NCBI GenBank assembly: GCA_004297825.1
Contig: SCSX01000014.1
Span: 1 to 64,000, forward strand
DNA: 64,000 nt
Direction: 5' to 3'
Origin: Spirochaetota bacterium
Lineage (GTDB): Bacteria; Spirochaetota; UBA4802; UBA5368
Below are positions 2,803 to 57,236 of the stretch, in pieces. A program made the position numbers and the translations under genes. Positions within the stretch are counted from its first letter, which is position 1, and every line of letters starts with the position of its first letter. The notes beneath the pieces are model-generated. The model searched no databases, had not been told where the DNA came from, and saw only the letters and a program-made list of their open reading frames with translations.

Positions 2803-3258
2803 GGCGGCGCGCAACTCCTGCTGGTATCCGATATGCGATGGGTAATTCCTTCCCGGGCCACAGGTGCAGTGAAATTCTCCTGGCCCAATGGTACGCCTGC
2901 CGGGAAATCCTTTCAGTCCGCACCAGTATGAAGCTTCGGCTTTTTTTTTCAAGCTATTCAGGCGGACCCACGGCATAATAATCAAGGAATTCGCGCGCCC
3001 GAAAAACGCGCGCCGTTGATCCGGGGAGAGCTTACCCGCGTAAACCAGTGTATCGGCACCCCGCTCTTTGATAAGCCTCGTTCGCCAACGGTCCGATCAT
3101 CGGGACCTCGCAGCGCTCAATACTGTTTCGATGCGACCGATAATGCCTGCGCGACGACGGGCCCTGCCTCGATTTCGTCCTGTTAATTCTACTGGACACC
3201 CCGCCAGGATTTTATTTCATGGTTTCCATCATTATCCAGATCCCCGAGGTCACATGCC
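2803..3258. other. 456-bp intergenic region between divergent genes
   Basis: This region separates the metallophosphoesterase (minus) from the CoA-binding protein (plus). I see no convincing coding frame or RNA gene. A short tract at about 3020-3055 beginning CCGGGGAGAG partly resembles a tract at about 6373-6408. A ribosome-binding GAGGT at 3246-3250 belongs to the plus-strand gene. Promoters for both genes must lie here but none stands out. Confidence 0.5.
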
Positions 3259-4707
3259 ATGTCACACAACCCGCTCCAAGAAATAATGAACGCGCGCTCC
3301 ATCGCTTTTTTTGGCGCCTCCAGTTCTATGGCGAAGATGGGAACCGGCCAGTTGGTGACGCTGCTGTGCAATCATTATCCAGGCGCCATCTACCCCATCC
3401 ATCCGAGGGAAGAGGAGATTTTCGGACTGCGCGCCTACCGGCGTGTGGGCGATATCGGGAAGCCCGTCGATCTCGCCGTCATTATTCTGCCGGCGAAACT
3501 CGTTCCCGGGATCGTGCGCGAGTTGGGCGAGGCGGGAATCCGGCGCGCCGTAATCGTCACTGCCGGCTTCAGCGAGGCGGGCGGCGGCGATCTGCAGCGC
3601 GAACTGGACGATGCCTCGAAGAGCGCCGGCCTCCGCTATGTGGGGCCCAACTGCATCGGTGTCGCGAATCTCCACCAAAGCTACAATTTTACCATATTCC
3701 CCTTCGAAGGGAAGCCGGGCACCCTGGGGATGCTTTCCCATTCCGGGACATTCGTGACGCACCTTATGCCCTACCTGAACGCGCGCCGCCTCAACTGGGC
3801 GGAGGCGATCAGCCTGGGAAACGAGGGCGACCTCGATATCGTCGACGGGCTCGATTACATGGCCGGACGCGAACCCATCAAGGCCATCACCTGCTATATA
3901 GAGACCATCCGGCGAGGGCGGGACTTTATGGAAAAGGCCGCCGCGGTTTCCCGGGTTAAGCCGGTCATCGCGCTGTACGCGAGCGGTACAGAGGCAAGTG
4001 CCCGCGCAACGGCCTCGCATACGGCGGCCATAGCCACGCCCGAGGGCGTCATCAACGGCATGTTCAGCCAGACCGGGATCGTGCGTGCAGACTCGCTCGA
4101 GGAAATGTTCGACTTCGCCTGCGTGCTCTCCCGCTGCAGCCTGCCGAAAGGCCGCCGTGTGGGCATACTCACCAACAGCGGCGGCCCCGGCGCCATCATG
4201 GCGGGCACGGTAGCGCGCTGCGGGATGAGCCTTCCCCGGTTTTCACCGGCCCTCCAGCAGGCCATCGCCGCATACGCGCCGCCCACCGCCTCGCTCTCCA
4301 ATCCCGTCGACTTCACCTTTATCAACGACTGGGAGGGCTATTTCAGCAAGGTGCCGCGGCTCATCGCCGAATCCGGCGAGGTGGACGTGCTCCTCTACTA
4401 CGGCTTCTTTGGCGTGGAGACCTTCCTCCATTACAGCGATCACCCCTCGGTGGCGCCCAGCCTTGACCGCGCCATCATCGACGCCGCCATGAAGATCGGC
4501 GACTCCCTCAAGCACACCATCGCCGATACGCTCAAGGGCCTTCCGGTACCGATCATCTGTTCGACCTTTCTCGACCTGGACGAATCCCTCATCGCGCACC
4601 TGATCGAACACGACGTCCCCTTCCTGCCCACGCCGGAACGGGCCGCCCGCGCCGCATGGGCGCTCTGCCGCTACGCCGAGTGGCGGAGGAACCGCATATC
4701 CGACTGA
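3259..4707 (+). CDS. CoA-binding protein, alpha part of NDP-forming acyl-CoA synthetase
   Basis: The 482-residue protein resembles the alpha part of ADP-forming acetyl-CoA synthetases and related succinyl-CoA synthetase alpha folds. An N-terminal Rossmann CoA-binding domain begins ARSIAFFGASSSMAKMGTG. It is followed by two ligase-CoA domains with GMLSHSGTF, AEAISLGNEGDLD and ASHTAAIATPEG; the His in that last motif matches the phosphohistidine region (SHTGALAG) of relatives. The ATP-grasp beta part found in the roughly 700-residue fused enzymes is absent, and no beta-subunit gene is adjacent. The protein may work with a partner encoded elsewhere. The start is backed by GAGGT eight bases upstream. 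The exact substrate is unknown. Confidence 0.85.
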   Translation: MSHNPLQEIMNARSIAFFGASSSMAKMGTGQLVTLLCNHYPGAIYPIHPREEEIFGLRAYRRVGDIGKPVDLAVIILPAKLVPGIVRELGEAGIRRAVIVTAGFSEAGGGDLQRELDDASKSAGLRYVGPNCIGVANLHQSYNFTIFPFEGKPGTLGMLSHSGTFVTHLMPYLNARRLNWAEAISLGNEGDLDIVDGLDYMAGREPIKAITCYIETIRRGRDFMEKAAAVSRVKPVIALYASGTEASARATASHTAAIATPEGVINGMFSQTGIVRADSLEEMFDFACVLSRCSLPKGRRVGILTNSGGPGAIMAGTVARCGMSLPRFSPALQQAIAAYAPPTASLSNPVDFTFINDWEGYFSKVPRLIAESGEVDVLLYYGFFGVETFLHYSDHPSVAPSLDRAIIDAAMKIGDSLKHTIADTLKGLPVPIICSTFLDLDESLIAHLIEHDVPFLPTPERAARAAWALCRYAEWRRNRISD

Positions 4708-4785
4708 GTGCGACTTTGGTACTGTGGGGTCGGGGAAGGGTGCGATCTGGTCTCCTCTCCCGTGCAGGGCAGAGGCCACTTATAT

Positions 4786-5022
4786 TCATTTGCTTTTGTC
4801 TCTAATCAACCTGGTAACCAGGCCCTTCGCGGGGAAGCTGTGATCACTGGTCTCCTGTTTGCTATAAATCAGTTTTCCGTCGCATTTAATATCGAACACC
4901 CCGCCGCTTCCCCGTATCAACTCGATTTTCGAATCCGGGAAATCCATTAAAAGCTCTGCTTCCACACGGGAAGCCTCGGGCAGGTAGTTTCAGCTGGTGC
5001 AATACTTGATTGAGATATTCAT
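4786..5022 (-). CDS. SelW/Rdx-family selenoprotein with in-frame UGA (Sec11)
   Basis: Reading from the ATG at 5020-5022 gives a 78-residue protein if the in-frame TGA at 4990-4992 is read as selenocysteine. The N-terminus is then MNISIKYCTSUNYLPEAS. The CxxU redox motif followed by NYLP is typical of bacterial SelW-like (Rdx) thioredoxin-fold proteins. The family's later features follow: GSGGVFDIKCDGKLIYSK and SFPAKGLV. The stop is TGA at 4786-4788. A strong AGGAGG sits 4 bases before the ATG. A hairpin placed like a bacterial SECIS lies 15 bases after the UGA. Rdx proteins are thought to be thiol-disulphide oxidoreductases, but their substrates are poorly known. The reading implies SelA, SelB and tRNA-Sec elsewhere in the genome. 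Confidence 0.93.
4958..4974 (-). promoter_or_regulatory. SECIS-like hairpin for selenocysteine insertion
   Basis: On the minus strand GCUUCC and GGAAGC form a perfect 6-bp stem around a 5-base loop CGUGU. It begins 15 bases after the UGA codon at 4990-4992. A small stem, a short loop with G in its first two positions, and a distance of about 15-40 bases from the UGA are the usual features of bacterial SECIS elements, which bind SelB. Confidence 0.8.
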
Positions 5023-5133
5023 TATTCCTCCTGTGCGCAGCCTTTATAGCGTTAATAGGAAATACCGGTTTTTCAAGCATAATATTCATTGCGCGGAATA
5101 GGCCTCTTCCTGATGCTCCCTTCGCAGCTTGTT

Positions 5134-6303
5134 TTAAGGCTTCGCCTTCATGTGTTCAATGAAATGCCAAAGCGGTGCCACGGTAATGTTTTTCGGCAAT
5201 GGATAGGGACCGGGTACGGGAGCGATGACCCATGATTCGGTTATTGCAAGGGCCTCCCTTGCGTGGTAAAACCCCCTTCCCAGCTCGGGTGCCGAGGAAA
5301 CCTTGAATTCCACGGCGATTCTTTTTTGTCCCTTTTCCAGTATCAGGTCGATCTCCGCTCCCGTTGAAGCGCGGTAAAAGGAAGCGGACCATGAGGAAAG
5401 CGCCGATAGAATGTTTTCCATCGCGAACCCTTCCCACGAATACCCGTACACGGGATGCCCCAGGAGATCGTTCCACGTTTCTATTTCGAGCAGCGAATGC
5501 AACAGGCCCGAATCCCTGATATAGCATTTGGGCGACTTGATAACACGCTTTTTTGCATTTGTGCTATATGCAGGAAGTATCCGGACAAGAAAGGTCTGGG
5601 CAAGTATATCGATGTACGATCGCACGGTATTGTGACTCACTCCCAGGGACTCGCCTATTTTCGAGTAGTTGAGTGTTTGCCCGTGAGAGTGTGCGCACAT
5701 GGTCCACAGCCGTCTCATAGACGCGGCGGGGATGTTGAATCCAAGCTGGGGAATGTCCCTTTCCAGGTATGTCCTGATAAAATCCGAACGCCACGGCGAG
5801 CTCGCGGCCGATGCGGCAAGATAGCTCCTGGGATAGCCGCCCCTGAGCCAGATTTTGCGCAACAGGGCCGCGTCGTGCCCCGGGTTTACCTCGGAAAGTA
5901 AAAAGGGAGTGAGTTCAAGATAGGATATTCTTCCGGCCAGTGACTCGGAGCTCTGGCGCAGAAGGTCACGCGAGGCGGACCCGAGGATAAGGAGCCGGCC
6001 GTTCATGCCGCTCCTGTCGAGTATGCTTCGCAGCGCCGGAAAAATTTCCGGCGCGCGCTGGACTTCATCGAGACATACAAGGCAGTCCGCATTTATCTCA
6101 AAAAAGGCCTCAATATCCTCTATTTTACGCAGATCCGAGGGCCTTTCGAGGTCGAGAAATACCGCGTTCTTGTGGGAAGCGAGTATCGAGCGCGCCAGCG
6201 TCGATTTCCCGCACTGTCTCGGTCCCAAGATCGCCACAGCTGGATTGTTTTTCAGTCTTTCTGTTAATACAGGGGCCATGGCCCGTGGAATGGAACTCTG
6301 CAT
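5134..6303 (-). CDS. AAA_14/DUF4143-type ATP-binding protein
   Basis: The 389-residue protein belongs to the widespread family with an N-terminal AAA-type ATPase and a C-terminal DUF4143 nuclease-like domain. Walker A is GPRQCGKS (about 27-34) and Walker B is CLVCLDEV (about 74-81). The sensor-like region LLILGSASRDLL follows. The C-terminal region contains the usual ...EIDLILEKGQKRIAVEFKVS stretch, which resembles a PD-(D/E)xK core (Glu, Asp, then Glu and Lys). The cellular role of this family is not settled; members are often mobile and patchily distributed. A strong promoter and a 28-base inverted repeat overlap the start codon, and no Shine-Dalgarno sequence is present, so the mRNA may be leaderless. 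Confidence 0.88.
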   Translation of the reverse strand: MQSSIPRAMAPVLTERLKNNPAVAILGPRQCGKSTLARSILASHKNAVFLDLERPSDLRKIEDIEAFFEINADCLVCLDEVQRAPEIFPALRSILDRSGMNGRLLILGSASRDLLRQSSESLAGRISYLELTPFLLSEVNPGHDAALLRKIWLRGGYPRSYLAASAASSPWRSDFIRTYLERDIPQLGFNIPAASMRRLWTMCAHSHGQTLNYSKIGESLGVSHNTVRSYIDILAQTFLVRILPAYSTNAKKRVIKSPKCYIRDSGLLHSLLEIETWNDLLGHPVYGYSWEGFAMENILSALSSWSASFYRASTGAEIDLILEKGQKRIAVEFKVSSAPELGRGFYHAREALAITESWVIAPVPGPYPLPKNITVAPLWHFIEHMKAKP

Positions 6304-6334
6304 ATTGATAATGATAATTACAATATGCAGAGTT
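6294..6334. repeat. 14-bp perfect inverted repeat spanning the ATPase promoter and start
   Basis: AACTCTGCATATTG at 6294-6307 is the exact reverse complement of 6321-6334, with a 13-base AT-rich spacer. One arm contains the start codon of the ATPase gene and the other sits between its -35 and -10 hexamers. It could be an operator for autoregulation or a hairpin over the start codon. Confidence 0.75.
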
Positions 6335-6340
6335 TGTCAA
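6311..6340 (-). promoter_or_regulatory. probable promoter of the AAA_14 ATPase gene
   Basis: On the minus strand TTGACA (6335-6340) is followed after 18 bases by TATCAT (6311-6316). The -10 hexamer ends 7 bases before the ATG at 6301-6303. The predicted transcript would start at or next to the initiation codon. Confidence 0.65.
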
Positions 6341-6623
6341 GTGCTTTAAATCAAGGAAACTGCGTCCTCTTTCCGGGGAGAGTTCCCTGACATAAACCTG
6401 CTTCTCGGAAGTGTGCTCCTCAAAGAAGCTGCCCTTCCCCGTTAAAAATCCCTCAGACAGAGGGCTTAAAATTTGCGATGTCCCAAAATCGCGCTTTTTT
6501 CAAAAGCCTGGGCAAAACGGCCCTCGGCCGTTTCACAGATTGTGCATTACGGTGATGAAAAGTCAATGTATTATCGAAATGAGGAACGAATCCGGCACTA
6601 CCTTCGTCCAGGGCGTCCCTCTC
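6341..6623. other. intergenic region between ATPase promoter and ilv terminator
   Basis: I see no supported gene here. Open frames that cross it continue into the antisense of ilvC and have no recognisable content. It contains the second copy of the loosely repeated CCGGGGAGAG tract (about 6373-6408). Confidence 0.5.
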
Positions 6624-6661
6624 AAAAAAACAAAGGCGCGGAATTTTTCTCCGCGCCTTTG
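6624..6661 (-). terminator. intrinsic terminator of the ilvBNC operon
   Basis: A 12-bp stem CAAAGGCGCGGA / TCCGCGCCTTTG (6631-6642 and 6650-6661) with a 7-base loop is followed on the minus strand by seven T. It lies 28 bases after the ilvC stop. Confidence 0.9.
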
Positions 6662-6688
6662 TTGCATGTACCGGTTATTAGTGAAGTC

Positions 6689-7684
6689 CTACTTCGCGTT
6701 GATCCACTTCATCATCTTGCGCAGCTCCGCGCCCACCTTCTCGATCTTGTGGTTCTTGTTTTCCTCGCGCACCTTGTTGAAGAAGGGGCGCCCGTCCTCG
6801 TTCTCCTTGATCCAGCGCTTCGCGAACGAGCCGTCCTGGACCTCGGCGAGGATCTTCTTCATTTCCTTGCGGGTCTCCGCGTTGATGATGCGCGGGCCGC
6901 TCACGTAGTCGCCGAACTCGGCGGTGTCCGATACCGAGTAGCGCATGTAGTTGATCCCGCCCTGGTAGAAGAGGTCCACGATGAGCTTGAGCTCGTGCAG
7001 GCACTCGAAGTACGCGATCTCCGGCTGGTACCCGGCCTCGACGAGCGTATCGAACCCGGCTTTGACGAGCTCGGACGCGCCGCCGCAGAGTACGGCCTGT
7101 TCGCCGAAGAGGTCGGTCTCGGTTTCTTCTTTAAAGGTGGTCTCGATTACGCCCGCGCGCGTCGCCCCGATTCCCTTCGCATAGGCGAGCGAAATCTTCC
7201 TGGCGTTTCCGGACGCGTCGTTGTGGATGGCGATGAGGCAGGGGACGCCCGCGCCCTTTTCGTATTCGCTGCGTACCAGGTGGCCTGGTCCCTTGGGCGC
7301 GACCATGATCACGTCCACGTCCTTGGGCGGCACGATCTGGCCGAAATGGATATTGAAGCCGTGGGAGAACACAAGGGTCTTGCCGGCCTTGAGGCTTGGT
7401 TCCACGTCGTTTTTGTAGAGCTTTGCCTGGATGTGGTCCTGCGCGAGTATCTGGATGATGTCGGCCTTCGCGGCCGCCTCGGCGGCGGTCACGGGCTTGA
7501 AGCCATGCGATTCCGCAAGCTTGAAGTTTTCCGTCCCCGGGAGCTCGGCGATCATGACCTGGAGACCGCTGTCGCGCAGGTTCTGCGCCTGGGCGTGGCC
7601 CTGGCTCCCGTATCCCACGACGGCGATGAGTTTATTCTTGAGCACCCCGAGATCGGCGTCGTTGTCGTAATACATTTTAGCCAT
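6689..7684 (-). CDS. ilvC: ketol-acid reductoisomerase (NADP+)
   Basis: IlvC converts 2-acetolactate or 2-aceto-2-hydroxybutyrate into the dihydroxy acid precursor of valine, leucine and isoleucine. The 331-residue length fits the short class I form. The NADPH-binding loop GYGSQGHA lies at about 24-31 and the [15 protein letters not shown] segment at about 125-140. The C-terminal helical domain contains the metal-binding region around [13 protein letters not shown] and [13 protein letters not shown] very strong GGAGGAATT precedes the ATG. It is the last gene of the ilvB-ilvN-ilvC operon, separated from ilvN by about 200 bases and followed directly by a terminator. Confidence 0.98.
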
Positions 7685-56378: not shown

Positions 56379-57236
56379 ATGCGTGGGAAAATACTCATTA
56401 TCTTCTGCATCATCCTGTTCCAGGCGGTTGTCCATCCCGCTCCCGGGTTTGCCGTTTCGACCGCCGTAAAAACCCAATTTGATTACATGTTCACACTCGA
56501 TGTTCTGCGCAATCTGAGGATTTTCATCGAAAATTTCGGAACCGAAGAACAAAAGACAAAATACGAAGAAATTAAAAAGCTGTTCAATGACGCCTCGGAA
56601 AGCTACTATGCGCAGAGTTTTTCGGTTTCGCATCAGAAATACTTTGGGGTTAAGGAGCGGCTTTCCGAGCTGCTTGAAATCATAGCCGGTGCATATCTCA
56701 AGAGAACCAGGGAAATTCTCGATTCAACGTCAAAAAACTCGTTCGATATCATTCTCAAGTACGGAAAAAACTCCGGTTTGAAAAAATATCTGTCCATGCC
56801 GTACGATCCCATCGAAGGAATAAAACCCATCAAGGAAGATGAATATCACTTTTTCTACGACAAGGAAGCGATTGAAACCTACCTTCGTTCCGGTTATAAA
56901 CGACTCGAGCTGGCAAAATCCGTCTTCGAGGACCCAGAGCTGAAAATCGTGAAGGAAAAAAAGAACAAGACCTCGAGTAATCTTGACTTTATAATTGATC
57001 GCTACTGGAAAACAATCAGCAATTGCCGGGTGGCAAAGCAATATGGTATTGAAATTCACAAAATATTGAAAATCAACATGATCGGGGAAATTCTCAGAAA
57101 ATACAATCTTACTTCACAGGCTCTTTCACCGATATTCGACGACAGGATACCGGAAGAATACAAGATTGATGCGAACGACAATCTGCGATTGATACATTCC
57201 ATAGAAAAGGAACGCTTGACGAAGAAAACAAAATAG
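56379..57236 (+). CDS. exported protein of unknown function
   Basis: The 285-residue product begins MRGKILIIFCIILFQAVVHPAPGFA, a signal peptide. I choose this ATG because GAGG lies six bases upstream; an earlier ATG (56328) gives 17 extra residues. The mature protein is helical, basic and AT-rich, with two Lys-rich stretches and no recognised domain. It is the only plus-strand gene between DUF2225 and the ribosomal operon and ends at a terminator shared with rplQ. Confidence 0.72.
   Translation: MRGKILIIFCIILFQAVVHPAPGFAVSTAVKTQFDYMFTLDVLRNLRIFIENFGTEEQKTKYEEIKKLFNDASESYYAQSFSVSHQKYFGVKERLSELLEIIAGAYLKRTREILDSTSKNSFDIILKYGKNSGLKKYLSMPYDPIEGIKPIKEDEYHFFYDKEAIETYLRSGYKRLELAKSVFEDPELKIVKEKKNKTSSNLDFIIDRYWKTISNCRVAKQYGIEIHKILKINMIGEILRKYNLTSQALSPIFDDRIPEEYKIDANDNLRLIHSIEKERLTKKTK

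Follow-up and report, generated by a model that had tools for sequence, protein, structure and literature searches.

A predicted SelW-like selenoprotein gene with an in-frame UGA codon and a conserved SECIS-type hairpin in a genome of the phylum Spirochaetota

The window analysed in this study, which is the whole 64-kb stretch of DNA, lies on contig 14 of a host genome of 4.89 Mb (96 contigs, 95% complete). It contains a minus-strand frame that was proposed in the initial annotation as a missed selenoprotein gene of the SelW/Rdx type. The features of this locus and of the two adjacent genes are the following:

4786..5022, minus strand: predicted SelW-like/Rdx selenoprotein gene, 78 codons plus a TGA stop, with matches to PF10262, NF041051 and TIGR02174
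4990..4992, minus strand: in-frame TGA at codon 11, read as selenocysteine (CxxU); the same codon is TGA in 34 aligned homologues
5027..5032, minus strand: Shine-Dalgarno sequence AGGAGG, 4 nt 5' of the ATG, read directly off the sequence
4958..4974, minus strand: putative bacterial SECIS hairpin GCUUCC-CGUGU-GGAAGC, 17 nt, with a 6-bp stem and a 5-nt loop, fitting the published bSECIS limits
5134..6303, minus strand: upstream neighbour, an AAA_14/DUF4143 ATPase, for which a functional link to the selW-like gene is not thought likely
3259..4707, plus strand: convergent downstream neighbour, a CoA-binding/succinyl-CoA ligase-like protein, for which a link is likewise not thought likely

The frame of 78 codons was seen at 5022..4786 as initially described, with an ATG preceded by AGGAGG and a TGA at codon 11 within a CxxU motif, and the two quoted motifs, YCTSUNYLP and GSGGVFDIKCDGKLIYSK, both match its translation, MNISIKYCTSUNYLPEASRVEAELLMDFPDSKIELIRGSGGVFDIKCDGKLIYSKQETSDHSFPAKGLVTRLIRDKSK. 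The CxxU redox motif corresponds to C8-T-S-U11, near the N terminus of the protein, and the frame is terminated by a second TGA (4788-4786) after 67 codons beyond codon 11. Under translation table 11 the frame halts at codon 11, and it is plausible that plain ORF calling would miss or truncate the gene. A six-frame scan of the window for CxxU or Uxx[C/U] followed by at least 50 codons gave, by motif pattern alone, two candidates: the selW-like gene and another frame, on the plus strand, at 56515. The G+C content of the selW-like gene was 47%, compared with 55% for the window and 61% for ilvC/ilvB.

The SelW/Rdx pattern noted in the initial annotation was borne out by profile searches in which the TGA of codon 11 was translated as Cys. 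Three profiles were matched above their curated cut-offs, namely PF10262 (Rdx; 1.7e-19, 70.2 bits, cut-off 22.6), TIGR02174 (CXXU_selWTH; 4.7e-15, 55.6 bits, cut-off 34.2) and NF041051 (SelT/SelW/SelH family (seleno)protein; 7.8e-26, 90.1 bits, cut-off 88). Residues 2-75 of the window protein align to positions 1-74 of the 74 positions of the Rdx profile, and a match of this strength across the UGA rules out a chance resemblance of the protein. Among solved structures, a profile search retrieved 2fa8 (Atu0228; 4.4e-14), 3dex (SAV_2001; 4.3e-13), 2ljk (C17orf37; 8.8e-12) and 2npb (SelW; 4.7e-4), all of which have the domain in common with the window protein by profile, although their chains comprise 96-117 residues and the window protein is shorter, with 78. 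From the match to these solved relatives we infer a thioredoxin-like fold.

Sec-containing SelW-like proteins have been described since 2005 or earlier and rank among the commonest selenoproteins in marine metagenomes. SelW-like proteins were a previously known family when they were found to be, with 48 genes, the most abundant one in the Sargasso Sea data (PMC1088965). Ten bacterial Sec-containing sequences, including those of Desulfotalea and Geobacter, followed in 2006 (PMC1794560), as well as 427 SelW-like sequences from the GOS data (PMC2398784), and a 2026 review lists the family with PF10262 and CxxU as 'predicted with high confidence' (PMC13188914). The window protein shares with the bacterial SelW-like selenoproteins described in these four works a CxxU near the N terminus and a length of about 75-80 residues, and its gene shares with them the in-frame UGA, a SECIS element with G in its small apical loop and a Sec-utilising bacterial host. 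There is no essential difference from the family; the best identity to the homologues found, about 50%, marks a divergent member, and the sampled relatives of the window lineage lack the gene. It is an ordinary new member.

When 84,980 species genomes were scanned with short exact peptide patterns of the window protein (MNISIKYC among them), an approach that is biased to close relatives, five relatives were confirmed, with identities of 39-51%; they belong to Planctomycetota and Pseudomonadota. TGA occupies the codon 11 equivalent in all five, and selA was found in four of the five genomes. A profile made from these relatives and the window gene was then applied to the class of one of them, a Phycisphaerae MAG (L026), giving 65 matches that were spread over 60 of 298 genomes. 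An in-frame TGA was present in every one of the 65, so that this class yielded SelW-like genes in the UGA form alone, and the 29 additional matches that were aligned all had it at codon 11. The 34 aligned homologues comprise the five relatives (L023-L027) and these 29 sequences (L059-L087), giving 35 genes with that of the window. The initial annotation had named homologues with a true stop and no similarity downstream as the observation that would contradict it; instead, the homologues keep UGA at the same codon and their similarity continues downstream. Elsewhere in the phylum of the window homologues are rare (12 other genomes, of 393) and are Cys forms, whose Cys aligns with the UGA position of codon 11. 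Among plasmid records 29 distant matches were obtained, none of which reached 60% identity, and a scan of viral contigs gave no relative of the window gene.

The 17-base hairpin reported 15 bases past the UGA was confirmed at 4974-4958. The bSECIS model comprises a loop of 3-9 nt, a stem of 4-16 bp, a UGA-to-loop distance of 16-37 nt and a minimum free energy of -7.5 kcal/mol or lower; it further asks for a G at loop position 1 or 2, and the next base is often G or U (PMC13188914). The window hairpin lies within all these limits, with G-U (4967-4966) at loop positions 2 and 3 and 21 nt between UGA and loop. Its energy was -9.2 kcal/mol in a 48-nt stretch, while in longer stretches the program favours an alternative fold, and folding energy alone was no better than that of shuffles (z -0.4 to +0.6). 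Nothing was found in an Rfam scan of the locus; Rfam may not cover bacterial SECIS hairpins. The putative hairpin is convincing only through comparison with the homologues. The loop NGUNU was found in 35/35 Sec genes at an identical offset from the UGA, against 5.3-6.5 of 35 expected under synonymous-codon shuffling, which keeps the protein sequences unchanged (maximum 14, 1000 trials), and the loop with at least four inner base pairs in 31/35, against 0.7 expected (maximum 5); these counts are not independent, given that the 35 genes are mutually related. Covariation, calculated for the six sequences of greatest diversity, scored 0.50; shuffled partners gave 0.19 (none of 500 reached the observed score) and slid partners no more than 0.16. 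When only the window gene was shuffled synonymously, stem and loop appeared in 1.2% of the shuffles. At the loop the window protein has R-V and most relatives have S-L or G-L, and the G, U and U are nonetheless retained. As judged from these comparisons, the predicted SelW SECIS loop is constrained at the RNA level, beyond protein conservation.

The initial annotation also predicted a working Sec system in this organism, and the full set of selA, selB, selC and selD was located in the host genome. The tRNA-Sec (selC) scored 73.5 bits (cut-off 47) and was called by ARAGORN as tRNA-SeC with anticodon tca; selA was matched with 481.5 bits and selB, which adjoins it, with 281 bits and a SelB winged-helix domain (SelB-wing_3). 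These three genes are clustered on contig 37, and selD (380.7 bits) lies on contig 25. The organism should therefore have a functioning Sec system. The host selD (L018, G000:C25:35410-36336) carries one in-frame TGA, in VKGAG-U-ASKIGP, and is probably itself a selenoprotein; Sec-containing SelD is common. Within the order of the window, selA was also matched in most of the 45 other genomes searched (37 genomes, two of which gave partial matches only).

The sequence itself shows the match to the family, the genes of the Sec system and the conservation of both UGA and hairpin, and on this basis the locus almost certainly encodes a SelW-like (Rdx, SelT/SelW/SelH) selenoprotein of 78 residues and roughly 8.6 kDa with SelB-dependent Sec at codon 11. 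In the predicted mechanism, SelB would bind the hairpin 15 nt past the UGA and deliver Sec-tRNA(Sec) to codon 11; Sec at this position would complete the CxxU redox motif of a small protein with a thioredoxin-like fold, which most likely acts as a thiol/selenol oxidoreductase via C8/U11. Incorporation of Sec in vivo, redox activity and possible partners are to be taken as predictions. Three points were counted against this reading, the unexceptional energy of the isolated fold, the lack of the gene in all close relatives searched and the Cys forms elsewhere in the phylum.

The Cys forms also speak for a SelW pseudogene, that is, a Cys-type rdx disrupted by mutation of TGC/TGT to TGA or by a sequencing error, and the existence of relatives without the gene makes decay possible. 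However, the nearest homologues all have TGA at the same codon, no further stop or frameshift is present, the Shine-Dalgarno sequence is intact, the SECIS loop is conserved beyond protein constraint and the Sec system is complete, so a pseudogene is very improbable. That the UGA is a genuine stop, followed by a chance frame or a separate ORF, agrees with the end of the frame at codon 11 under table 11, but it is contradicted by the passage of the Rdx match through the UGA over the entire profile and by the similarity of the homologues on both sides of it, and its probability is negligible. Just as hard to credit is a general reassignment of UGA to another amino acid, Trp or Gly, in the host genome. 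No support for it was found, and it is opposed by the complete selA, selB, selC and selD set with the tca anticodon of selC, by the termination of the selW-like gene itself with a second UGA and by the alignment of the codon 11 position with Cys in the Cys forms.

With regard to gene context, no function is indicated, because the neighbourhoods of four of the relatives (L023, L024, L026 and L027) have no common theme (CinA plus amidase, Rho, DUF4389 and a metallo-beta-lactamase fold). In the same-genus genome G001 (contig 552; L049), the DUF4143 ATPase gene has on its far side a second ilvC 3' end of about 184 bp (93% identity) and is thus bracketed by direct ilvC-end repeats, as after integration or duplication (compare window 5134-7684); a search of window 2900-6299 found no such second copy. 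A short dispersed repeat of about 45-57 bp, partly inverted, precedes the ATPase gene at window 6294-6398; G001 has about ten more copies of it and the host genome has one at another place, and a REP-like or mobile repeat is the candidate class. Near the contig start, a probable IS256-type transposase was read in the sequence at 154-1377 on the minus strand.

The selW-like gene was found in none of the 45 other searched genomes of the order, including the single one of the same genus, in which the ATPase gene beside ilvC is present with no selW after it. Because the close relatives searched lack the gene, the window lineage has no near orthologue in which purifying selection could show. Absence from an order in which most genomes have selA suggests either horizontal gain or widespread loss; horizontal gain fits best, loss in other lineages being the alternative. 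In a tree of 47 Rdx proteins the window gene groups with the Pseudomonadota Sec forms L024/L025 (89/29), and these three sit inside a starred set of 11, of which 8 are Cys forms; the tree, of only 77 columns, does not separate a Sec-first from a Cys-first order or point to a donor. We tentatively propose, as a scenario that falls a little short of probable, that a Sec-containing selW-like gene was gained horizontally with its built-in NGUNU hairpin and could be used at once since the recipient lineage had Sec machinery. The tight hairpin, with its fixed offset and invariant G-U-x-U, would then represent one SECIS subtype of the SelW-like family, kept in Planctomycetota, Pseudomonadota and the window lineage.

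The present reading corrects a gene that is truncated by standard ORF calling and confirms the use of Sec in the host beyond selD. In addition, NGUNU provides a simple and specific pattern for finding further SelW-like selenoproteins.
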